From the NCBI GenBank assembly GCA_021791345.1, contig JAJYWT010000168.1, forward strand, positions 1-13,301: a DNA stretch of 13,301 nt, given 5' to 3'. The DNA comes from a bacterium (GTDB taxonomy: Bacteria; Chloroflexota; Dormibacteria; UBA8260; Bog-877). Shown here piece by piece: positions 2,053 to 12,843 of the stretch. Positions within the stretch are counted from its first letter, which is position 1. Every line of letters starts with the position of its first letter. Under the pieces are notes generated by a model. It worked only from the letters and a program-made list of their open reading frames with translations, was not told where the DNA came from and did no database searches. Made by a program: the position numbers and the translations under genes.

Positions 2053-2940
2053 CTATCGCATCGAGGGATCGAACAGATCCCGGAGCCCGTCGCCGAGGAG
2101 GTTGAACGCCAGGGTGGTGAGGAAGATGGCGACGCCCGGGAGGATGGCGATCCAAGGGTCGTTGTAGAGATACGTCTGGGCGGTGGCCAGCATGTTGCCC
2201 CAGGAGGGGGTTGGCGGCTGCACGCCGAGCCCGAGGAAAGACAGAAGGGCCGACCCCAGGATCGCGGCCGGGATCGACACCGAGGCCTGGACCAAAAGCG
2301 GACTCAGCATGTTGGGGAAGAGGTGGCGGAAGAGGATCACTCGATCCCGCACCCCGGTGACGATCGCCGCCTGCACGAAGTCCTGCTCCCTAAGGGCCAT
2401 CGCCTCGGCCCTGGCGATCCTGATCGAGCCGGGGAGCTGAGCCAGCCCCAGGGCGATGATCACGTTCTGCAGCGAGGGCTTGAAGATGGCGGCCAGGCCC
2501 ACCGCTATGAGCAGGAACGGGAAGGCCAAGACCACGTCGGCGATGCGCATGGCCACCATGTCCGCGGCCCCCCGGTAGTACCCCGAGGCGATCCCGATCG
2601 GGACCGCCAGGACCATGGCCAGCAGGGTCGCCAGCACGCCAACCTCCAGCGTCGACTGGGACCCATATATGAGGCGCGAGAGCTCGTCCCGGCCCAGCTG
2701 GTCGGTGCCCAGGAGGTGCCCAGCCACCCCCGGAGGCGCCAGGACGTGGGTGAACTGGCTGGCCACGGGGGACTCCGGCGCCAGCAGTGGGGCGAACACA
2801 GCCACCGCGACCACAATCACCACCCCCGCCAGACCCAGTACCGCGGGCGGGCGCCGCCGGAAGCGGCGCCACCACCCCTGTCGGGACGGCGCCGTGACGG
2901 CCGTCGCGGATCCGGCACCGGGCGCGGTGGCGACACTCAT
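2053..2940 (-). CDS. Peptide ABC importer permease, DppC/OppC type
   Basis: This 295-residue inner-membrane permease belongs to the BPD_transp_1 family and pairs with the DppB-type permease to form the channel. A short basic cytoplasmic N-terminus (WWRRFRRRPP, about 23-32) leads into the first membrane segment (about 33-53). The typical extracytoplasmic HLLGTDQLGRDELSRLIYG block of DppC proteins follows. The EAA-type loop that docks on the ATPase is at EAMALREQDFVQAAIVTG, followed by FRHLFPN. About six membrane segments are expected. The ATG at 2940 overlaps the preceding permease's TGA (ATGA) and has GGGGGAG 5 bases before it. An in-frame extension upstream to 3225 is rejected because it lies wholly inside the other permease. 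Confidence 0.94.
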   Translation of the reverse strand: MSVATAPGAGSATAVTAPSRQGWWRRFRRRPPAVLGLAGVVIVVAVAVFAPLLAPESPVASQFTHVLAPPGVAGHLLGTDQLGRDELSRLIYGSQSTLEVGVLATLLAMVLAVPIGIASGYYRGAADMVAMRIADVVLAFPFLLIAVGLAAIFKPSLQNVIIALGLAQLPGSIRIARAEAMALREQDFVQAAIVTGVRDRVILFRHLFPNMLSPLLVQASVSIPAAILGSALLSFLGLGVQPPTPSWGNMLATAQTYLYNDPWIAILPGVAIFLTTLAFNLLGDGLRDLFDPSMR

Positions 2941-3896
2941 CCCGGCTCCCCCGCCAGTCGCACCTTGGGGCTCAGGATCATGTAGACGAAGTCCATGAGG
3001 AGGTTGATGAGTATCACCAGCGCGGCGGTCAGGAGGGCCACCGCCTGGATGGTGGGGTAGTCCCGCTGGAACACCGCGTTGATGGTCAGCTGGCCTATCC
3101 CCGGCAGGCCGAACACCTCCTCCGTGACAGCGACCCCCGAGAGCAATATCCCGAACTGCAGGCCAATCACCGTAGCCACCGTGACCAGGCTGTTGCGCAG
3201 GGCGTGCTTGAGCACCACCACCCACTCCGACAGCCCCTTGGCCCGCGCGGTGCGCACGTAGTCGGCCCGCATGGTCTCCAGCAGTCCGGAGCGCGTCTGG
3301 CGCATCAGCACTGCGGCTACCCCGGTGCCCAACACGAAGGCCGGCATCAGCATGTGGGTGAGGTTCTGGCCCGGGCTGGCGCTGAAGGAGACGAAGCCCG
3401 TGGCGGGCAGCAGGGTGAAGTGCACCGAGAGCAGAAGGATCAGCATGATCGCGAACCAGAAGCTGGGGATCGACAGCCCGAAGAGGGCGAGAGCGTTGCT
3501 GGCGTAGTCGGCCGTCCTACCTCTTCTGATCGCTGCCAGGATCCCCGTGGGGATGCCGAGAAGCAGGGCTATGAGCATGGAGAGCACGGTCAGTTCGAAG
3601 GTGATCGGAAAGGCGTTCCCGATCTCGGTGGTCACCGGCATCCCGGTGACCGGAGAGGCGCCCAGGTGGCCGGTTACCACCTGCCCGACCCAGTCCACGT
3701 ACTGGACGGGGAGGGGGTTGTCCAGCCCGTACTCGCGGTTGATGGCGGCCAGCGCTGCCGCGCTGAAGTTGGTGTTTCCGGTGAGGGCGGTGGCCGGGCT
3801 GCCCGGCACCGCCCTCACTCCCAGGAACACCACCATGGAGGCGATGACCAGGGTGAGCAGCGAGATCCCCAGTCGCCGGAGGAGGTACCCCCTCAC
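2937..3896 (-). CDS. Peptide ABC importer permease, DppB/OppB type
   Basis: This is a 319-residue permease. The N-terminus MRGYLLRRLGISLLTLVIAS leads into membrane segment 1 and then VRAVPGSPA, the usual DppB opening. The middle contains several hydrophobic segments. The EAA loop is at RADYVRTARAKGLSEWVVV with HALRNSL. The C-terminal part has GLPGIGQLTINAVFQRDYP, another DppB hallmark. Start is GTG at 3896-3894, with no clear Shine-Dalgarno sequence before it. That start lies inside the 3' arm of a 10-bp stem-loop (3890-3918), so initiation may depend on structure or on coupling. It follows the binding-protein gene after 61 bases and overlaps the next permease by 4 bases. Confidence 0.93.
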   Translation of the reverse strand: MRGYLLRRLGISLLTLVIASMVVFLGVRAVPGSPATALTGNTNFSAAALAAINREYGLDNPLPVQYVDWVGQVVTGHLGASPVTGMPVTTEIGNAFPITFELTVLSMLIALLLGIPTGILAAIRRGRTADYASNALALFGLSIPSFWFAIMLILLLSVHFTLLPATGFVSFSASPGQNLTHMLMPAFVLGTGVAAVLMRQTRSGLLETMRADYVRTARAKGLSEWVVVLKHALRNSLVTVATVIGLQFGILLSGVAVTEEVFGLPGIGQLTINAVFQRDYPTIQAVALLTAALVILINLLMDFVYMILSPKVRLAGEPG

Positions 3897-3957: not shown

Positions 3958-5568
3958 TCACGACGCGGTCAGGCCCGCGGAACCGAGGTGGAGGAGCCCA
4001 TCCGGAGTGAACGAGACCCCGACCACCGACTTCGGGTAGGCGATCTGGTTGGTGAGGTGGAAAAGGTAGATGATCCCGTTGTACTGCAGCATCGCCTTCT
4101 CGGCCTGGTAGTAGAGGGCCTTACGGGTGGCGACGTTGGTCGTCGCCTTGGCCTGGGCCAGGGGGCCGAGTACTGACTGTGGAGCCTGCCCCGAGTAGTC
4201 GAAGGCGCTCCCCTGGGTGTAGAAGGGCGTGGTGTTCTGGTCCGGGTCCACCCGGCCCGACCAGCCGATGTCGAAGAGCTGGTAGTTGCCCGCCTGGGCG
4301 TTGGCCAGCGCCGAGGTGAACTCGGTGGGCTGCACCGTGATGTTGAAGCCGGCGGCCTTGGCCTCGGTGGCCTCGATCTCCCCCTGCTGGACGTTGACGG
4401 TTCCCGTGGGCACCATCAGGGTGAGGTTGATGGGAGTTGGCACCCCCGACTCCTGGACCAGCTTCTTGGCCTCGGTGATGTTGGTGGCCGGGCAGCTCAG
4501 CTTGGTGTAGAAGACGCTGGCCGGACTGATGGGACCACATCCGACCACGTTGCTGTTCTGGTAGGCGACGGAGTTGATCGTCTGCCGGTCCAGGGTGAGC
4601 GCCAGCGCCTCCCTCAGCAGTGGATGGGTCGCCAGCGGGTTGTTGGCGACCGCGGCGGGCTTGAGCCAGCCGTTGCCATTGGTGATGTTGATGGTTATCC
4701 CCTCGTAGCCGTTGGATGTCAGCTGGGAGGTGACGTAGGAGCTGTTGGTGGTCAGCAGCTTGTAGTCGTTGGCGGCCAGGCAGCCGGGGCCGGCGACATT
4801 GATCGCCCCCGAGAGGAGGTCGGAGTAGCAGGTGGCGGGGTCGGTGATGGCCTCAAAGATGAGGGTCTGGATGTGCGGGGTGCCCCCGAAAAAGTAGTGG
4901 GAGCGGGTGAGGATCACCTCGTTCAGGGAAGGCCGCGACTTGAAGGCGAACGGGCCCACGCAGACCGGGTCCTCGAAGAAGTTGGCGCCCTCGCGGGCCA
5001 GCGCCGTCGGCGACATTACGATCCCCGACCGCGCCGCCAGGATGCTGGTCAGCGGAGCGTCGGGTGCCGAGAGATGGAGCTGGACGGTCAGGCTGTTGAC
5101 CACGGTGACGCTCGATACCAGCTTGAGGTTGGCGGCCCGGGCTGAGGTGGGGAGCGTCTTATCGCGCTCCAACGAGGTCTGCACCGCCTGCGCGGTGAGG
5201 GGCGTGCCGTCGTTGAACTTGACGCCCTTGCGCAGGTGGATGGTGTACAGGAGCCCGCCATCCGACACGGTAGGCAGCGCCGAGGCCAGCGAGGGGACCA
5301 CCGCCATCTGGGAGTTGATCCCATACAGGCTGAGGCACATGTTGGCGAAGATGATCCGTCCCACCAGGGACCCCTCGGTCGAGGGATCCAGGGCGGTGGG
5401 GGCGTTGGGGATCCCGACGATCAGGGTGCCGCCGTTCTGGATCTTGGGTGCCTTCGGGGTGTGGTGATTGTTGGCCGGGGCCGACGAGCAGGCGGCGAGG
5501 AGCAAGGCGGCACCTCCGACGGCTGCTCCCGTCCGCAGACCCCGCGGGGGCCTCAACTTGATTCCCAT
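3958..5568 (-). CDS. Extracellular solute-binding lipoprotein, family 5 (DppA/OppA type)
   Basis: This is the substrate-capture component of the importer, 536 residues. The N-terminus is a lipoprotein signal: basic MGIKLRPPRGLR, a short hydrophobic stretch, then the lipobox LAAC with acceptor Cys27. A Ser/Ala/Pro/Asn/His linker follows. The mature domain opens with GGTLIVGIPNAPTALDPS. It contains YTIHLRKGVKFNDGTPLTAQ, the conserved block of SBP_bac_5 proteins. I chose the ATG at 5568 because it gives this signal peptide and has GGAG 3 bases before it. The frame stays open to 5955, but that extension has no family resemblance. It is the first major cistron of the minus-strand operon, read from the promoter near 5822-5849. 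The ligand is unknown; the trailing GGT-like gene makes gamma-glutamyl peptides one option. Confidence 0.93.
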   Translation of the reverse strand: MGIKLRPPRGLRTGAAVGGAALLLAACSSAPANNHHTPKAPKIQNGGTLIVGIPNAPTALDPSTEGSLVGRIIFANMCLSLYGINSQMAVVPSLASALPTVSDGGLLYTIHLRKGVKFNDGTPLTAQAVQTSLERDKTLPTSARAANLKLVSSVTVVNSLTVQLHLSAPDAPLTSILAARSGIVMSPTALAREGANFFEDPVCVGPFAFKSRPSLNEVILTRSHYFFGGTPHIQTLIFEAITDPATCYSDLLSGAINVAGPGCLAANDYKLLTTNSSYVTSQLTSNGYEGITINITNGNGWLKPAAVANNPLATHPLLREALALTLDRQTINSVAYQNSNVVGCGPISPASVFYTKLSCPATNITEAKKLVQESGVPTPINLTLMVPTGTVNVQQGEIEATEAKAAGFNITVQPTEFTSALANAQAGNYQLFDIGWSGRVDPDQNTTPFYTQGSAFDYSGQAPQSVLGPLAQAKATTNVATRKALYYQAEKAMLQYNGIIYLFHLTNQIAYPKSVVGVSFTPDGLLHLGSAGLTAS

Positions 5569-5725: not shown

Positions 5726-5821
5726 AAGCCCTTCCTCCCGTGCGTCCGCCGCCCGTTCCCGCGGGGTGCATGGCCACCCCATCGGGCCGGTGTCGATCTC
5801 CAGCGCCAATGGCAGGCCGAC

Positions 5822-5849
5822 TGTATACCATCCACCACGTGGGTGTAAA
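5822..5849 (-). promoter_or_regulatory. Sigma70-type promoter for the importer operon
   Basis: On the minus strand, TTTACA (5849-5844) and TATACA (5827-5822) are separated by 16 bases. They match the -35 and -10 consensus at five and four of six positions. TGG directly precedes the -10, giving an extended -10. The -10 overlaps GTATAC, a small palindrome of the kind FCD-type GntR proteins often bind. Transcription would start near 5815, leaving a leader of about 250 bases before the binding-protein gene. Confidence 0.55.
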
Positions 5850-5942: not shown

Positions 5943-5951
5943 TGGTATATG
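5943..5951 (+). promoter_or_regulatory. Candidate extended -10 for the catabolic operon
   Basis: TGGTATATG (5943-5951) reads as an extended -10 (TGG plus TATATG). No convincing -35 lies 16-18 bases upstream; TAGAGT at 5923-5928 is poor. The start of transcription would fall near 5958, about 60 bases before the lyase start. It shares the heptamer TGGTATA with the minus-strand promoter. Confidence 0.3.
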
Positions 5952-6003
5952 TCACGCCACACGCCAGCCCGGCGGCCGCAGAGCGCGGGCGGTGTCAGCG
6001 GCT

Positions 6004-6017: not shown

Positions 6018-7721
6018 ATGTCCGAGTCGGGCGAGCTCAGCGCGGACTCCGGGGCGGGCACCGTCTCCGGGGGGCACCTGGTGGCGCGCGCCCTGCGCGC
6101 TGAGGGGGTGGACGTCATCTTCACCCTCTGCGGCGGTCACATCATCGACATCTATGACGGCTGCCTGGACGAGGGGATCCGGATCGTCGACGTCCGCCAC
6201 GAGCAGGTGGCGGCGCATGCGGCCGATGGGTACTCGCGGGTGACGGGGACGGCGGGATGCGCGGTGGTCACCGCGGGACCGGGCACCACCGACGCCATAA
6301 CCGGGGTGGCCAACGCCTTCCGGGCGGAGAGCCCGATGCTGCTGATCGGCGGGCAGGGAGCGACGGACCAGCATCGCATGGGATCCCTGCAGGACCTCCC
6401 CCATGTGGATCTGCTGCGCCCGATCACCAAGTTCGCGGCCTCGGTGCCCACCACCTCCCGCGTGGCCGACATGGTCTCCATGGCCTTCCGGGAGGCTTAC
6501 CTCGGCGCCCCCGGGCCGTCCTACCTGGAGATCCCCCGGGACGTGCTGGATCGTCGCATCCCCTTGGAGCAGGCGGTCATCCCCGAGCCCGGCCGTTACC
6601 GCGCCTCGACCCGCAGCCTCGGCGACCCCAAGGACGTGGAGAGGTTGGCGGAGCTGCTCGCCAACTCCAGCCGGCCGTGCATCCTGCTGGGCCAGCAAGT
6701 CTGGACCTGCCGGGCCGGGGAGGCCGCTGCCGACCTCTGCCGGAAGCTCGATGTCCCCGCCTTTTTGAACGGGGCGGGCCGGGGGACACTGCCTCCGGGC
6801 GACCCCCATCACTTCCAGCTCACCCGACGCTACGCGTTCTCCCGCGCGGACCTGATAGTGGTGGTCGGCACCCCCTTCGACTTCCGACTCGGGTATGGCA
6901 AGCGGCTCGGCCAGCAGGCCGCGGTGGTCCAGATAGACCTCGACTACCGCACCGTGGGCCGGAACCGCGACCTCTCCCTGGGGCTGGTCGGGGACTGCTC
7001 AGTGATCCTGGCGGCGGCGGCGCAGGCCGCCTCCAGCTCCGCCGGGGAGGCCGCCGGAGATCGCCGCGCGTGGCTCCGGGAGCTGCGCTCCGAAGAGGAG
7101 CGCCTCCACGCACTGCGCGCTCCCCAGCTGCACTCTGAGGCCTGCCCCATCCACCCCATGCGCCTTGCTAGCGAGATCAATTCCTTCCTCACCGACGACA
7201 CGATCTACATCGGGGACGGGGGCGACGTGGTCACCACCGCGGGCCAGGTGGTGCAGCCCCATCTGCCCGGGCACTGGATGGACCCGGGGCCGCTCGGAAC
7301 CCTCGGCGTGGGCATCGGCTTTGCCATGGCCGCCAAGTTGGCCCGGCCCGACCAGGAGGTCCTCTGTTACTTCGGCGACGGAGCTCTGAGCCTCACCGGC
7401 TTCGACTTCGAGACCATGGTGCGCTACCAACTCCCCTTCGTCGGCGTGGTGGGCAACAACTCCCATATGAACCAGATACGGTTCGGCCAGATCTCCAAGT
7501 ACGGCCGGGAGCGCGGGGAGGTGGCCAACCAGCTCGGGGACCTGGCCTACGACCGGTTCGCCCAAGCCCTCGGCGGGTACGGCGAAGAGGTCCGCCTGCC
7601 CGCGGACATACGACCGGCCCTGGAGCGGGCGCGCGAGTCGGGCCTGCCCGCCCTCATCAATGTCTGGGTGGATCCCGAGGAGTTCGCCTCCGGGACCGTG
7701 AACCAGACCATGTACAAGTGA
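6018..7721 (+). CDS. Thiamine-diphosphate-dependent lyase, oxalyl-CoA decarboxylase / 2-hydroxyacyl-CoA lyase family
   Basis: This 567-residue three-domain ThDP enzyme has the usual family length. The N-terminal Pyr domain has the activating glutamate in RHEQ (E62) and ADGYSRVTG. The block GSLQDLPHVDLLRP then TKFA (122-140) parallels the GAFQEFPQVEACRL block of human HACL1. The C-terminal PP domain has GPLGTLGVGIGF (424-435) and GDG (453-455). ETMVRYQLP and NN (480-481) then complete the ThDP-Mg site. These favour HACL/oxalyl-CoA decarboxylase over acetolactate synthase, and the Frc gene next door supports this. Compared from memory with Oxalobacter oxalyl-CoA decarboxylase, Tyr120, Tyr483 and Arg555 correspond to Leu124, Asn485 and Thr560 here, while Ser553 is kept as Ser558. 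The exact substrate is therefore uncertain; a 2-hydroxyacyl-CoA cleaved to a carbonyl compound plus formyl-CoA is plausible. It is the first gene of the operon. Confidence 0.85.
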   Translation: MSESGELSADSGAGTVSGGHLVARALRAEGVDVIFTLCGGHIIDIYDGCLDEGIRIVDVRHEQVAAHAADGYSRVTGTAGCAVVTAGPGTTDAITGVANAFRAESPMLLIGGQGATDQHRMGSLQDLPHVDLLRPITKFAASVPTTSRVADMVSMAFREAYLGAPGPSYLEIPRDVLDRRIPLEQAVIPEPGRYRASTRSLGDPKDVERLAELLANSSRPCILLGQQVWTCRAGEAAADLCRKLDVPAFLNGAGRGTLPPGDPHHFQLTRRYAFSRADLIVVVGTPFDFRLGYGKRLGQQAAVVQIDLDYRTVGRNRDLSLGLVGDCSVILAAAAQAASSSAGEAAGDRRAWLRELRSEEERLHALRAPQLHSEACPIHPMRLASEINSFLTDDTIYIGDGGDVVTTAGQVVQPHLPGHWMDPGPLGTLGVGIGFAMAAKLARPDQEVLCYFGDGALSLTGFDFETMVRYQLPFVGVVGNNSHMNQIRFGQISKYGRERGEVANQLGDLAYDRFAQALGGYGEEVRLPADIRPALERARESGLPALINVWVDPEEFASGTVNQTMYK

Positions 7722-7764
7722 GCCGGGGTCCCAGGAGGATGCCGGCCTGGCAAGGGGAGTTGCG

Positions 7765-8997
7765 ATGAGCAAGGCGCTGGAAGGGATCCGGGTGGTGGAC
7801 ATGACCCACGTCCAGGCCGGACCGGTCTGCACCCAGATGCTGGCCTGGCTGGGCGCCGATGTGATCAAGATCGAGCCGCCGGGGAGGGGTGACGTCACCC
7901 GCACCCAGCTCCGCGACCTCCCCGACGTGGACAGCCTCTACTTCACGATGCTCAACTCGAACAAGCGCAGCCTCACCCTGGACATCAAGCACCCGCTGGG
8001 CCAGGAGCTCCTCTGGGACCTCCTGCGCCGGTCCGATGTCCTGGTGGAGAACTTCGGCCCCGGGACCCTCGACCGCCAGGGGATCACCTGGGAGCGGGTT
8101 CACGCGGAGGCGCCACGGCTGATCTACGCCTCAATCAAGGGCTTTGGTCCCGGCGACTATGAGAACGCCAAGGCCTACGAGACCATAGCCCAGGCCATGG
8201 GCGGAGCCATGAGCACCACCGGCTTCCAGGACGGCCCCCCGACCTCCACAGGGGCGCAGATAGGCGACTCCGGCTCCGCCGTGCATCTGCTGGCGGCCAT
8301 CTTGGCGGCCCTGCTACAGCGGCACCAGACCGGACGGGGGCAGAGGGTCCAGGTGGCGATGCAGCACGCGGTGCTGAACCTCTGCCGGGTCAAGATCCGC
8401 GACCACCAGCGCCTCCAGCACGGTCCCCTCGCCGAGTATCCGAACTCGCAGTTCGGCAAGAGCGTGCCCCGGTCGGGCAACGCCTCGGGTGGTGGCCAGC
8501 CCGGCTGGGCGCTGCGCTGTCGTCCCGGGGGGCCCGACGACTTCATATACGTGATCATCCAGCCGCACATCTGGGAGCGCCTCCTGAGGCGGATCGACCG
8601 CGATGACCTGCTGGGCAACCCCGCCTGGGACACCCCGGAGGGCCGGCTCTCCCATCTGGACGAGGTCTTTTCAGTGATCGAGGAATGGACCATCCGCCAC
8701 ACCAAGTGGGAGGTCTTCGACGCCTTCAGCGCCATCGACGTTCCCTGCGGACCGGTGTTCGACACCAGCGACCTGGTGGCCGACGGATCGCTGCGGGGCA
8801 ACGGCATGATCGTCGAGGTGGAGCATCCCCAGCGGGGCACCTACCTCAACGTGGGTTGCCCGCTGCGCCTCTCGGACTCGCCGGTCGAGGTCGGGCGCTC
8901 GCCACTTTTGGGCGAGCACTCCGAGGTGGTGCTACGCGAGGTCCTGGGATTTGGGGAGGAGGAGGTGGCTCGAGTCCGCCGGGAGGGGGTGATCTGA
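7765..8997 (+). CDS. frc: Class III CoA-transferase, formyl-CoA transferase (Frc) type
   Basis: This 410-residue CaiB/BaiF-family enzyme moves CoA between acids through an aspartyl-CoA intermediate. It resembles Oxalobacter Frc along its length. Shared features are HVQAGP (Q17), DSLYFTM (Y59), NKRS, VENFGPG, Y138, TGFxDGPP and GDS with the catalytic Asp168 (Frc Asp169). The glycine loop GGGQPGW (242-248) and PLLGEH near the end also match. Two Frc pocket positions differ: Arg38 is Pro38 and Trp48 is Gln48. The stretch before the glycine loop is also about 18 residues shorter. The ATG is preceded by AGGGGAG with 5-base spacing, 43 bases after the lyase gene. Formyl-CoA is the likely CoA donor because the upstream lyase family makes it. 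Acceptor identity (oxalate or another acid) is open. Confidence 0.9.
   Translation: MSKALEGIRVVDMTHVQAGPVCTQMLAWLGADVIKIEPPGRGDVTRTQLRDLPDVDSLYFTMLNSNKRSLTLDIKHPLGQELLWDLLRRSDVLVENFGPGTLDRQGITWERVHAEAPRLIYASIKGFGPGDYENAKAYETIAQAMGGAMSTTGFQDGPPTSTGAQIGDSGSAVHLLAAILAALLQRHQTGRGQRVQVAMQHAVLNLCRVKIRDHQRLQHGPLAEYPNSQFGKSVPRSGNASGGGQPGWALRCRPGGPDDFIYVIIQPHIWERLLRRIDRDDLLGNPAWDTPEGRLSHLDEVFSVIEEWTIRHTKWEVFDAFSAIDVPCGPVFDTSDLVADGSLRGNGMIVEVEHPQRGTYLNVGCPLRLSDSPVEVGRSPLLGEHSEVVLREVLGFGEEEVARVRREGVI
8982..8986 (+). promoter_or_regulatory. Ribosome binding site supporting a CTG start
   Basis: GGAGG lies 7 bases before CTG at 8994-8996. The CTG overlaps the transferase stop as CTGA, the same 4-base arrangement seen as ATGA or GTGA elsewhere in this window. 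No ATG or GTG in the acyl-CoA synthetase frame sits near this position. Confidence 0.5.
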
Positions 8998-11120
8998 CCG
9001 CCGCCGGGCTGCGCCGCGCCCTGGACCGGGGGGAGGCGCAGCTGCTCGGCAGCGAGCTCTCCGGAGTCTGCTCGGCCTACGGCATCCCGCTCCCCCGGGA
9101 GGCGATCGGGCTGGATCCGACGGAGGCCGGCCGGCTGGCCGCCGAGATCGGGTTTCCCGTGGCGCTGAAGGTCGTCTCGCCGGACGTCGTCCACAAGACC
9201 GAGGCGGGGGCGGTGGCCCTCGGGCTGGCATCAGAGGCCGAGGTCGTGTTCGAGGGCGGGCGTCTGCTCCAGACCGTGAGCCGTCGCGTTCCCGAGGCGC
9301 GGATCGACGGGCTTCTGGTGCAGGCTATGGCCCCTCCGGGCCACGAGGTGATCGTCGGCGCCACCCTCGACCCCACCTTCGGACCGCTACTCGCCTTCGG
9401 GATGGGGGGAACGGCGGTGGAGGTGGCACGGGACGTCACGTTCTCCCTCGCTCCCGTCACTCGAGAGGAGGCGCGCCGGATGCTGGACCGGATCGCGGGG
9501 GCGCCGATCCTGCGCGGGGTGAGGGGCCAGCCCGGAGTGGACCTGGAGGCGCTGGCGGACCTCCTCCTCGCGGTCTCCCGGCTCATCTCAGAGAACCCGG
9601 AGATCTCCGAGGTCGACCTGAACCCGGTGGTGGTCGGCGAGCGAGGAGCATTGGTGGCGGACGCCCGGATCCTCCTCTCCGAGCCCCCACCGGCGCCGCA
9701 GCCCCGCCCCTCCCGCGACCAGATCCTCCAGGAGATGACCCGGCTGTTGCGGCCCCGGTCGGTCGCGATCATCGGGGCCTCGGCGGAGCCCGGCAAGATC
9801 GGGAACTCTGTGCTGCGGAACCTGATAGAGGGCGGCTACCGCGGGCGGATCTACCCGGTGAACCCCAGGGCCCAGGAGATCCTCGGGCTTCCCTGCTACG
9901 CCCGGGTGGAGGACGTCGCCGAGGAGGTCGACCTGGCCATCTTCACCATCCCCGCGGCGGCCGTGATCGAGGGTATGGAGCAGATCGGCCGCCGCGGGAT
10001 CCGCGCGGCGGTGCTCATCCCCTCGGGCTTCTCGGAGGTGGGGCGGCCCGACCTGCAGCGCCAGCTCCAGGAGGTGGCGCTGCGCCATGGCATCCGCTTC
10101 CTGGGCCCCAACATCTACGGCTATTACTACACCCCGGATTCGATCTGCGCCACCTTCTGCACCTCCTTCGACCTGAGTGGCCCGGTGGCGCTGACCTCCC
10201 AGTCCGGTGGCATCGGCATGGCCATCCTGGGCTTCGCCCGCTCCACGAAGCTGGGCGTCTCGGCGATCGTCGGCCTCGGCAACAAGGCCGACGTCGACGA
10301 GGACGACCTGCTCACCTTCTTCGCCGAGGACCGCACCACCTCCTGCATCGCCATGCACATGGAGGACCTCAAGGACGGCCGGGCCTTCCTCGAGGCGGCG
10401 CGCCGGGTCTCGCCGTCCAAGCCAGTCATCGTCCTGAAGGCGGGGCGCACCCGGGCAGGGGCCAGGGCCGCCCGCTCGCACACTGCCGCCCTGGCCGGCG
10501 ACGACAAGGTCTATCAGGACCTCTTCGCCGCCCACGGAGTGGTGCGCGCCCCCGGCCTGCGGGACCTCCTGGAGTACGCCAGGGCGCTGCCCATGCTGCC
10601 CACCCCGCGGGGCGAGAACGTCCTCATCATCACCGGTGCCGGCGGCTCTGGAGTCCTGCTGTCGGACGCCTGCGTCGACGCGGGGTTGGAGCTGATGGAG
10701 GTTCCGGACGACCTGGACCGCTCCTTCCGCGCCCATATCCCTCCCTTCGGTGCCGCCGGCAACCCGGTGGACATCACGGGCGGCGAGCCACCGTCCACCT
10801 ATCGCGCCACCATCGACCTGGGCCTTCGGGATCCGCGAGTTCACGCGCTGGTGATCGGCTACTGGCACACGATCGTCACCCCGCCCCTGGTGTTCGCCGA
10901 ACTGCTGGTGGACGCGGTCGAGTCGGCCCGGCTCCGGGGCAACGACAAGCCGGTGGTGGTGTCCCTGGCCGGGGATATCGAGGTGGAGGCCGCCGTGGAA
11001 CTGCTGTTCTCGCACGGCATCCCCGCGTACCCCTACAGCACGGAGATCCCGGTCGAAGTCCTGGGGGCCAAGTACCGCTGGGCCCGGGCCACCGGGAACC
11101 TCCCCGTGGCTCCGGCATGA
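8994..11120 (+). CDS. ADP-forming acyl-CoA synthetase (acetate--CoA ligase family), ATP-grasp half first
   Basis: This fused NDP-forming acyl-CoA synthetase of about 708 residues interconverts acyl-CoA + ADP + Pi with acid + CoA + ATP. Domain order is ATP-grasp (about 12-232; GIPLPREA, KVVSPDVVHKTEAG with H67, FGMGGT, DLNPVVV), then a Pro-rich linker (230-242). Next come the CoA-binding Rossmann domain (about 250-345; RSVAIIGASAEPGKIGN) and a succinyl-CoA-ligase-like domain (TSQSGGIG at 401-408). The latter has catalytic-type His496 in RSHTAALAG. A final ligase domain follows. Many fused members carry the halves in the opposite order. Start is uncertain: I infer CTG at 8994 (GGAGG, CTGA overlap), because the frame opens at 8685 deep inside the transferase gene, and the next in-frame GTG would cut the ATP-grasp domain. 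In this operon it may prime CoA loading or recover ATP from an acyl-CoA product. Confidence 0.87.
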   Translation: MTAAGLRRALDRGEAQLLGSELSGVCSAYGIPLPREAIGLDPTEAGRLAAEIGFPVALKVVSPDVVHKTEAGAVALGLASEAEVVFEGGRLLQTVSRRVPEARIDGLLVQAMAPPGHEVIVGATLDPTFGPLLAFGMGGTAVEVARDVTFSLAPVTREEARRMLDRIAGAPILRGVRGQPGVDLEALADLLLAVSRLISENPEISEVDLNPVVVGERGALVADARILLSEPPPAPQPRPSRDQILQEMTRLLRPRSVAIIGASAEPGKIGNSVLRNLIEGGYRGRIYPVNPRAQEILGLPCYARVEDVAEEVDLAIFTIPAAAVIEGMEQIGRRGIRAAVLIPSGFSEVGRPDLQRQLQEVALRHGIRFLGPNIYGYYYTPDSICATFCTSFDLSGPVALTSQSGGIGMAILGFARSTKLGVSAIVGLGNKADVDEDDLLTFFAEDRTTSCIAMHMEDLKDGRAFLEAARRVSPSKPVIVLKAGRTRAGARAARSHTAALAGDDKVYQDLFAAHGVVRAPGLRDLLEYARALPMLPTPRGENVLIITGAGGSGVLLSDACVDAGLELMEVPDDLDRSFRAHIPPFGAAGNPVDITGGEPPSTYRATIDLGLRDPRVHALVIGYWHTIVTPPLVFAELLVDAVESARLRGNDKPVVVSLAGDIEVEAAVELLFSHGIPAYPYSTEIPVEVLGAKYRWARATGNLPVAPA

Positions 11121-11959
11121 GCCCCGGTTCGGCGAGCCCTCGGGGGCGCGCGCGAAGGGCGGACTCGCCGCCGCCCGAGGTCTTGGCCCCGGGGTCCGGT
11201 AGTACGATGAATCCAGTGCTTGCGAAGGGGGCCGGGGCGGGACCCGAGAGCTCCGACGGGTCAGCGACCGGGCGCCGTAGCTCGATCAACCTGGAGCGCC
11301 TGGAGGCGGACGTCACGCTCCCGGATCGCGCCTATGAGGCTCTGAAGCGCGCCATCATGGCGATGCGAATCTACGACGGGCAGGAGGACCTGCGCCTCGA
11401 CGAGCGTCGGCTGGCCCACGACCTGGGGATCAGCCGCACCCCGGTGCGGGAGGCCCTGCTCCGACTGCAGCACGAGGGGCTGGTGCGCACCGTACCCAGG
11501 CGCGGGGTCTTCGTGGTGCGCAAGAGCAAGTCCGAGATCCTGGAGGTGGTCCTGGCCAGTGCCGCCCTCGAGGGGATGGCCGGAAGGCTGGCCGCCAGCC
11601 GGGCCAGCGACGCGCAGATCGCCCAGGTCCGCACCCAGTTCAAGGAGGTGATCCGCCACCCCTCGAAGCTGAGCCTGGAGGAGTACTCCGCTCTCAATCT
11701 GCACTTCCATCAGCACATCGTCGACTTGGCGCACTCCGAGATGCTTTCTGAGTTGGTCGAGACGCTCAAGATTCACATGCGCGCCATCCGGGCCCGGACC
11801 ATGGGTGACGGCGACCGCATGAAGCGGTCGCCGGTCGAGCACCTGCGCATCCTGGAGGCGCTGGAGGCTCGCGACGCCGACGCGCTGGAGCGCGCGATCC
11901 GCCAGCACGGCACCAACCTTGCCGACCACGTCGAGCGCTTCGTCGACTACTTGGACTGA
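11117..11959 (+). CDS. GntR-family transcriptional regulator, FCD (FadR-type) subgroup
   Basis: This is a 280-residue ligand-responsive DNA-binding protein. The N-terminal 60 or so residues are Gly/Ser/Pro/Arg-rich and look disordered. The winged helix follows (about 67-136), with recognition region LAHDLGISRTPVREALLRL (99-117) and wing EGLVRTVPRRGVFV. The C-terminal FCD all-helical sensor domain (about 140-275) has likely metal or ligand residues N194, H198, H242 and H264. The first position is usually Asp in this family; here it is Asn. The ATG at 11117 overlaps the synthetase TGA (ATGA), so it is the last gene of the operon. ATG 11207 (Met31) is an alternative start that removes half of the unusual tail. 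A local repressor of this operon, and perhaps of the divergent importer, is the simplest role. Its ligand would be a pathway acid or CoA ester, by inference. Confidence 0.9.
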   Translation: MSPGSASPRGRARRADSPPPEVLAPGSGSTMNPVLAKGAGAGPESSDGSATGRRSSINLERLEADVTLPDRAYEALKRAIMAMRIYDGQEDLRLDERRLAHDLGISRTPVREALLRLQHEGLVRTVPRRGVFVVRKSKSEILEVVLASAALEGMAGRLAASRASDAQIAQVRTQFKEVIRHPSKLSLEEYSALNLHFHQHIVDLAHSEMLSELVETLKIHMRAIRARTMGDGDRMKRSPVEHLRILEALEARDADALERAIRQHGTNLADHVERFVDYLD

Positions 11960-12135: not shown

Positions 12136-12843
12136 ATGCCTCACGCCCAAGTCGGCGACATCAAGCTGTTCTACGAGGAGCATGGAAGCGGGGATCCGCT
12201 CGTGCTCATCCCGGGGTTGGGCTCCGGCACCGGGCTCTTCTCCACTGTGGTCCCGCGGCTCGCAGACCGCCATCGGGTAGTTGTAATCGACCCGCGAGGA
12301 GGGGGTGAGAGCGACAAGCCTGCGGGCCCCTACTCCATCGGGCAGATGACCGACGACGTCGCCGGCTTGATGGGCGCGCTCGGGATCACCCGTACTCACG
12401 TCATGGGCTATTCGATGGGAGGCAAGATCGCTCTCCAGTTGGCGGCAGATCATCCCGAACTTGTCGACCACCTGATCCTGGCCGCAACTTCTGCGGGGCC
12501 GCTGGTCACGCGGCGTCTCTCTCGGGCCTGGCTCATGGTGGACATCATCTCGAGGATCCCCGTGTGGCGTAAGTTCGACGCCCAACCCACCTACGCGTTC
12601 GAGGCCCAGCGACGTGCGTCCGTCGCATTCGACGGACGCACCCTTCTCACCAAGGTGACGGCGAGCACGCTGATCATCCAGGCCAAGCGAGACCACATTG
12701 TGTCGCCGAGCGCCACGAAGGAGTTGCTGGCGATCCCCATGAGCTCGCTTATCGAGCTCCCCGGGGGGCACGTCACGCTGGTGATGATTCACGGTAAGGA
12801 GGTCGCCGGGGCGGTGTCGTCGTTCTTGGAGCCCGCATCCTGA
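12136..12843 (+). CDS. Alpha/beta hydrolase, compact
   Basis: This 235-residue serine hydrolase has a complete apparent catalytic triad. The nucleophile is Ser93 in GYSMGG, the acid is Asp186 in AKRDHIV, and the base is His212 in GGHVT. The oxyanion-side loop is IPGLGSG (25-31), and DPRGGGESD (52-60) is the usual strand-4 motif. The closest style is the 3-oxoadipate enol-lactonase / esterase group. It is 25-40 residues shorter than most of that group, and the missing part is in the cap (about 120-170). ATG 12136 is preceded by GAGAGG. Codon use is somewhat less GC-biased at the third position than in the operon before it. It lies 176 bases after the regulator gene, so it may be a separate unit. 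The substrate cannot be told. Confidence 0.88.
   Translation: MPHAQVGDIKLFYEEHGSGDPLVLIPGLGSGTGLFSTVVPRLADRHRVVVIDPRGGGESDKPAGPYSIGQMTDDVAGLMGALGITRTHVMGYSMGGKIALQLAADHPELVDHLILAATSAGPLVTRRLSRAWLMVDIISRIPVWRKFDAQPTYAFEAQRRASVAFDGRTLLTKVTASTLIIQAKRDHIVSPSATKELLAIPMSSLIELPGGHVTLVMIHGKEVAGAVSSFLEPAS

Follow-up and report, generated by a model that had tools for sequence, protein, structure and literature searches.

The 13,301-base contig JAJYWT010000168.1 of a Dormibacteria genome, analysed at its full length and referred to here as the window, carries four genes on the + strand that encode, in order, a thiamine diphosphate (ThDP)-dependent enzyme (P0001), a formyl-CoA:oxalate CoA-transferase (Frc; P0002), an ADP-forming acyl-CoA synthetase (P0010, also called the ligase) and an FCD-type GntR regulator (P0003). 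Comparisons with other genomes suggest that this operon degrades oxalate and that P0001 represents a second, separately evolved family of oxalyl-CoA decarboxylase that closes the Frc cycle, a reading to which we assign a probability of about 0.86. P0001 is predicted to be an overlooked substitute for the textbook oxalyl-CoA decarboxylase (OXC), seemingly used by many soil bacteria and now named acetolactate synthase by some sources. No report of a second OXC family was found in the portions of the open-access literature consulted. The closest relatives of the window were Dormibacterota metagenome-assembled genomes, and its GC content ranged from 65 to 73% by kilobase. An earlier annotation made from the letters of the window (the original prediction) had named the same four genes, reading in one direction with short gaps or 4-base overlaps; open reading frame (ORF) and Pfam analyses bore this out, with 43 nt separating the ThDP gene from frc and a 4-nt overlap between the ligase and GntR genes (11117–11120).

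In the proposed cycle, Frc would convert formyl-CoA and oxalate to formate and oxalyl-CoA, and P0001 would regenerate formyl-CoA by releasing CO2 from oxalyl-CoA. The net reaction would turn oxalate into formate and CO2, with the formate then passing to formate dehydrogenase or folate. To make up for lost CoA thioesters, the ligase would prime the cycle from formate or oxalate, ATP and CoA, and the GntR protein may sense oxalate or a CoA ester. A cycle of this form, where Frc draws on formyl-CoA from the ThDP enzyme to load the next acid, had been put forward in the original prediction and is probably correct; the 2-hydroxy acid substrate proposed there is probably wrong. The substrate is most likely oxalate because the catalytic Glu of the 2-hydroxyacyl-CoA lyase (HACL) AcHACL is replaced by Ile and because OXC and the new type exclude each other in the sampled Frc genomes. 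What the operon runs is thus most likely the established oxalate cycle with another decarboxylase in it. Since the original prediction had itself listed strict action on oxalyl-CoA as an outcome speaking against its 2-hydroxy acid pathway, the activity proposed here would count against that pathway.

The distribution of both decarboxylases was surveyed in genomes of relatives and other groups, not the window's own assembly, using thresholds of >739 bits for OXC and >504 bits for Frc. In the order containing Streptomyces daqingensis (197 genomes), P0001 orthologues (the new type; 920–949 bits, 70–73% identity) were identified in 66 genomes and OXC in 12, with no genome carrying both, and all 78 fell within the 80 genomes encoding Frc (Fisher's test among the Frc genomes, P = 1.5e−12, ignoring descent). 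The two remaining Frc genomes had a ThDP gene split between two frames (G234) or a C-terminal remnant and no ligase (G165). Matches to P0001 of 314–350 bits in ten genomes of this order were not counted as new type. In the class of Azorhizobium (289 genomes), Frc exceeded its cut-off in 24 genomes, of which 12 carried the new type and 11 carried OXC; no genome had both, and one (G768) had neither (P = 1e−5, ignoring descent). Across all 289 genomes there were 13 new-type genes (774–958 bits), 12 adjoining Frc and one, in G757, located 5 kb away; the Frc gene of the thirteenth genome, G600, is cut by a contig end and hence scored below the cut-off. Three further alphaproteobacteria without Frc over the cut-off gave P0001 matches of 485–497 bits (43–46% identity), which were likewise not counted (Table 1).

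A first scan of GTDB genomes with Frc had returned 37 loci, and the 25 genomes behind 26 of these were followed up. Twelve had an intact new-type pair and no OXC, and seven, all alphaproteobacteria, had OXC and no new type. OXC together with a new-type remnant was found in G015; G017 lacked OXC and matched part of the new type (73%, residues 14–279) on a different contig; G008, G009, G018 and G025 had neither decarboxylase. In a thin phylum-wide sample of Actinomycetota, Frc was present in 9 of 256 genomes, five of which had been counted in the Streptomyces order; the remaining four carried OXC (816–925 bits in three and 730 bits, just below the cut-off, in G294), and none carried the new type.

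Frc surroundings were fetched for 10 of the 12 OXC-bearing Streptomyces-order genomes, and seven of these stretches keep Frc, ligase and major facilitator superfamily (MFS) transporter genes without an intact new-type gene. Remnants of the new-type gene were identified in L098 (44%, residues 207–563) and L100 (57%, 478–567) and weakly in L099 (45%, 479–553), and no match to it was obtained in the clusters L101, L102, L104 and L107. The other three stretches held Frc and MFS genes without the ligase (L103, from G206), Frc pieces and an MFS gene (L108, from G116) or the OXC-Frc pair only (L109, from G278). An eighth Frc-ligase-MFS cluster with a new-type remnant, again in an OXC-bearing genome, came from the first scan (L015). 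This pattern is what swapping one decarboxylase for another would leave, and replacement seems to have been caught half-way.

The genes are linked far beyond chance, and the co-occurrence in related genomes on which the original prediction depended was confirmed. The order ThDP gene-Frc-ligase-GntR is conserved in L001 to L005, with the ligase of L005 appearing as two matches on either side of a run of N. Eight of 61 Dormibacteria relatives had ThDP gene copies (>900 bits), nine in total, all adjoining Frc; Dormibacteria genome G063 has an Frc gene, cut by the contig end, without a new-type ThDP gene. In all 66 genomes of the Streptomyces order that carry it, the ThDP gene immediately precedes Frc on the same strand, with matches ending 18 to 86 nt apart, and all ten 14- to 15-kb stretches fetched from these genomes show ThDP gene-Frc-ligase-MFS, as do Streptomyces loci L012 and L014. 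Other arrangements were ThDP gene-Frc-MFS (L006 and L007), formate dehydrogenase-ThDP gene-Frc (L010) and, in the SAR324 loci L013 and L016, TctCA-GntR-ThDP gene-Frc-formate-tetrahydrofolate (THF) ligase, without the ADP-forming ligase. Ten alphaproteobacterial stretches fetched among the twelve new-type genomes, one of just 5.4 kb, carried TctA/TctC relatives (5), GntR (6), formate-THF ligase (3), formate dehydrogenase (2), an OxlT relative (2) and the ADP-forming ligase (1). The ligase-bearing stretch, L143, has OxlT over its cut-off beside the new type (TIGR04259, 673 bits versus 335). In L136, a glyoxylate carboligase gene (7191–8813; PRK11269, 925 bits, cut-off 791) directly follows Frc and suggests that carbon from oxalate is assimilated there via the glycerate route.

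Active-site positions were compared in an alignment with 63 new-type rows (some genes fetched twice) and 8 OXC rows; OXC columns were placed through E. coli OXC and numbered after O. formigenes, and the AcHACL row is the PDB E493A mutant, hence the Ala in its Glu493 column. The ThDP-activating Glu of OXC (Glu56) is shared by the new type, being kept as Glu62 in all 55 rows with letters there (8 rows were cut). Arg270 corresponds to AcHACL R273 and ApbHACL R260, which bind acyl-CoA (PMC8760513, PMC11271303); it was present in 63/63 new-type rows and missing from the E. coli enzymes IlvB, IlvI, Gcl and PoxB. Glu493 of AcHACL, the acid/base catalyst of 2-hydroxyacyl-CoA cleavage, lies on an active-site helix (PMC8760513). 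Its column holds Ile in 63/63 new-type rows, Glu in 7/7 of the nearest Dormibacteria sisters, Tyr in the OXC rows and Val or Ile in the four E. coli enzymes. A decarboxylase, which has no hydroxyl proton to take, could do without this Glu of the lyase. At the columns of OXC Tyr120, Glu121 and Tyr483, residues named in PMC10192776 and PMC7190790, all 63 new-type rows have Leu, Gln and Ile versus Tyr, Glu and Tyr in the 8 OXC rows. The C-terminal sequence QTMYK, which differs from the tail of OXC, ended 63/63 new-type rows, and in a separate alignment of 41 proteins Tyr566 was invariant and Lys567 nearly so; our guess is that this tail closes over the substrate as that of OXC does. A 49% identical cousin of the new enzyme in G009 (L156) has the same Gln-Ile and Arg-Arg residues and lacks the QTMYK tail; its genome has no OXC over the cut-off.

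A tree was built from 26 new-type rows at <85% identity and 32 others, among which IlvB, IlvI, Gcl, PoxB and OXC of E. coli each appear twice; the program flagged long branches. The new type formed a single clade (100/100) apart from OXC, the OXC clade joined the sole HACL1-type row, ApbHACL (100/100), and AcHACL fell on the new-type side (95/88). We propose that the new family branched off in the part of the ThDP superfamily to which AcHACL and HACL2-like enzymes belong, and that it did not descend from the HACL1-like stock next to which OXC falls. Besides its place in the tree and its Arg273, AcHACL resembles the new type in an LQD motif with Gln128 and in a helix, residues 486–495 of P0001, that follows an NN motif and was modelled with modest confidence (block means of 51 and 63). 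It differs in that its Glu493 and Ile492 are Ile and Gln in the new type, whose C terminus is shorter (the model end pairs with AcHACL residues 567–570), and in that an AMP-forming ligase was not seen in the new-type cluster. The helix of AcHACL and acetolactate synthase is described as absent from OXC (PMC8760513). The AlphaFold model of P0001 (predicted local distance difference test score, 75; predicted template modelling score, 0.75) fell below 50 at residues 482–484 and 557–567, so active-site side chains are not placeable, and its PDB matches fail to discriminate among OXC, HACL, Gcl and benzaldehyde lyase.

P0001 scored below the cut-off of every NCBIfam model among the matches listed (25 of 53), including that of canonical OXC as found in E. 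coli (oxc/YfdU), O. formigenes and M. extorquens (TIGR03254, 225.2 bits versus 739.4), and two other activities were weighed for it. Were it a 2-hydroxyacyl-CoA lyase, as the original prediction had it, Frc would load a 2-hydroxy acid from formyl-CoA and the products would be a carbonyl compound and formate. The best PDB sequence matches were indeed HACLs (255 bits), followed by benzaldehyde lyase and then OXC (180–203 bits), yet the HACL model NF058623 gave 349.9 bits against a cut-off of 600, the catalytic Glu is replaced throughout, the neighbouring Frc is of the oxalate type (TIGR03253, 605.8 bits, cut-off 504.2; best PDB matches, E. coli YfdW and O. formigenes Frc), and the enzyme excludes OXC and appears to be replaced by it, which makes a lyase very unlikely. 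Less probable still is that P0001 works as an acetolactate synthase, or on some other 2-oxo acid, with frc as an unrelated neighbour. The highest-scoring NCBIfam model was the PRK05858 acetolactate synthase (NF004516; 511 bits, cut-off 587), source records often call the relatives acetolactate synthase, and a Val or Ile at the Glu site is common to the E. coli enzymes; against this, those four enzymes lack the invariant acyl-CoA Arg, the gene was never found without Frc among the 66 Streptomyces-order and 13 alphaproteobacterial genomes, and it is mutually exclusive with OXC.

The ligase has a complete ADP-forming synthetase domain set (ATP-grasp_5, CoA_binding_2, Succ_CoA_lig and Ligase_CoA_2) and both His motifs, presumably the sites of phosphorylation, which were kept in 18/18 relatives. 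It shares these features with NDP-forming acyl-CoA synthetases (PDB 4xyl; the 3-hydroxypropionate and 4-hydroxybutyrate ligases 9y43 and 8wzu) and differs in being a single chain of beta-alpha order that scored below the cut-offs of all seven NCBIfam models matched. It is an accessory that probably primes the cycle. ADP-forming synthetases run in the ATP-harvesting direction in archaea, and the conserved His motifs would also suit substrate-level phosphorylation from formyl-CoA. This role is unlikely, however: one formyl-CoA is made for each one spent, which leaves the ligase none to draw ATP from unless oxalate receives its CoA from a different donor, and priming is the simplest role; the ligase was also found in only 1/10 alphaproteobacterial stretches and 0/2 SAR324 loci. 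The original prediction had drawn attention to an ADP-forming ligase accompanying this pair, and it proved to be a conserved extra in Dormibacterota and Streptomyces; an essential role was rejected, as clusters without it exist. No genes are assigned to oxalate CoA-transferase (EC 2.8.3.2) or formyl-CoA hydrolase (PMC10192776), and a step of this kind could be taken over by the ligase. For the combined proposal, namely a second OXC family of separate origin, its active site being a new one (Leu-Gln and Gln-Ile for Tyr-Glu and Tyr; conserved QTMYK end), that serves most Streptomyces-order and half of the alphaproteobacterial Frc genomes sampled, together with a ligase that is the missing formyl-CoA or oxalyl-CoA ligase starting the cycle, the chances are about even.

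Several observations weigh against an oxalate-degrading role beyond the order of the PDB sequence matches. The second acyl-CoA Arg of AcHACL (R417) is replaced by Gly or Ala in the new type, and the OXC tyrosines and Glu121 are missing, which bears on how the enzyme would hold oxalyl-CoA. Transporters vary by group: ABC transporters of the peptide or Liv type, rather than OxlT, accompany the Dormibacterota clusters, and the Streptomyces MFS protein of L012, which has counterparts in all ten Streptomyces-order stretches, is nearest the oxalate/formate antiport family yet reached 183 of 375 and 147 of 335 bits, below the cut-offs. A RraA/CHA-aldolase-like gene lies near the L002, L032 (near-identical upstream) and L005 clusters. 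The exclusion counts are not independent of descent, and only a few events may lie behind the 12 OXC genomes. Eight Frc genomes lack an intact copy of either gene (G008, G009, G018, G025, G063, G165, G234 and G768). Compared with the textbook Frc/OXC module with OxlT, the new clusters have in common Frc, an antiporter-like MFS gene in Streptomyces, formate outlet genes in some clusters and FCD-GntR relatives, and differ in decarboxylase lineage, in the ADP-forming ligase of Dormibacterota and Streptomyces and in the ABC or TctABC transport of other groups.

Oxalate-degrader surveys look for oxc and frc (PMC10192776, PMC12927642, PMC7190790) and would score 66 of the 80 Streptomyces-order Frc genomes as lacking a decarboxylase despite the predicted substitute; some Streptomyces are known to degrade oxalate (Sahin 2004, cited in PMC11347878). 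If the assignment is true, the count of soil oxalate consumers changes, and a second active-site solution for oxalyl-CoA becomes available that would be useful for engineering OXC and HACL as one-carbon carboligases. It would also suggest that a lyase fold became a decarboxylase by the loss of one acid.

Relatives of the GntR regulator (35–54% identity) adjoin Frc both in new-type clusters and in Xanthobacter/Azorhizobium Frc-OxlT clusters, occurring in 15/16 of the latter loci (the remaining locus is cut). Canonical OXC was found in all seven genomes searched among these alphaproteobacteria, and regulator relatives beside the Frc of each decarboxylase type hint at a shared inducer. Two 10-base sites between the divergent operons of the window, at 5821–5830 (CTGTATACCA) and 5943–5952 (TGGTATATGT, by eye), resemble a TGGTATACCA GntR operator. 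Five TGGTATACCA-like sites occur in the window versus 1.4 expected, a number reached by 4/200 shuffles. Upstream of ThDP genes, 17 such sites (≤2 mismatches) were found in 13 of 54 stretches versus 5.7 expected from mononucleotide shuffles, with matches in L001, L010, L115 and L117, for example, and none in the Streptomyces-order upstream stretches. As statistics these candidate operators are weak. Sites occur in stretches that have a GntR gene as well as in stretches that lack one, and many GntR-bearing stretches show none.

Table 1. Genes and key residues of the window, and ThDP enzyme cousins left out of the new-type counts
Feature	Position	Strand	Remarks
ThDP enzyme P0001	6018–7721	+	567 aa; Pfam TPP_enzyme N/M/C; predicted second-family oxalyl-CoA decarboxylase
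P0001 key residues			Glu62 (ThDP Glu), Leu124-Gln125, Arg270, Gln486-Ile487, C-terminal QTMYK
frc P0002, formyl-CoA:oxalate CoA-transferase (class III)	7765–8997	+	410 aa; CoA_transf_3; TIGR03253
ADP-forming acyl-CoA synthetase P0010	8994–11120, start unsure	+	beta (ATP-grasp)-alpha order, one chain
FCD-type GntR regulator P0003	11117–11959	+	280 aa; Pfam GntR and FCD
Family 5 solute-binding lipoprotein, candidate uptake	3958–5568	−	start inferred from lipoprotein signal
DppB	2937–3896	−	Dpp/Opp-type ABC transporter, divergent from operon
DppC	2053–about 2940	−	start inferred
DppD	1060–2052	−	same divergent transporter
DppF	65–about 1063	−	start inferred
Uncounted ThDP cousins	G583:C1:109675, G655:C11:82713, G759:C18:6988

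The ligase frame has no ATG, GTG or TTG near the frc stop, and its 811-aa ORF opens inside frc at 8685. Homology begins at about a CTG at 8994, and a start there would share 4 nt with the end of frc. The frc-ligase spacer of the window is shorter by about 70 nt or more than in the four relatives compared (L001 to L004); a CTG start, a deletion or an assembly slip are candidate explanations for this short spacer (8994–9060).

The divergent Dpp transporter, including its solute-binding protein, is also present in L001, L003 and L004. It is replaced by a Liv-type ABC transporter and the RraA/CHA-aldolase-like gene in L002 (2014–8013), L032 and L005. Downstream of the operon, an alpha/beta hydrolase gene was identified at 12136–12843 (Abhydrolase_1, 100 bits; best NCBIfam match PcaD-like, far below its cut-off).

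Frc-like CoA-transferases below the cut-off (356–404 bits) directly adjoin HACL-like ThDP enzymes in six other loci, L146 (G715), L147 (G596), L148 (G631), L149 (G079), L150 (G810) and L151 (G716). The HACL-like enzymes of L150 and L151 carry an R-K-x-Q-x-x-x-W tail, as described for ApbHACL (PMC11271303), and this pairing might be where a 2-hydroxy acid cycle really exists.

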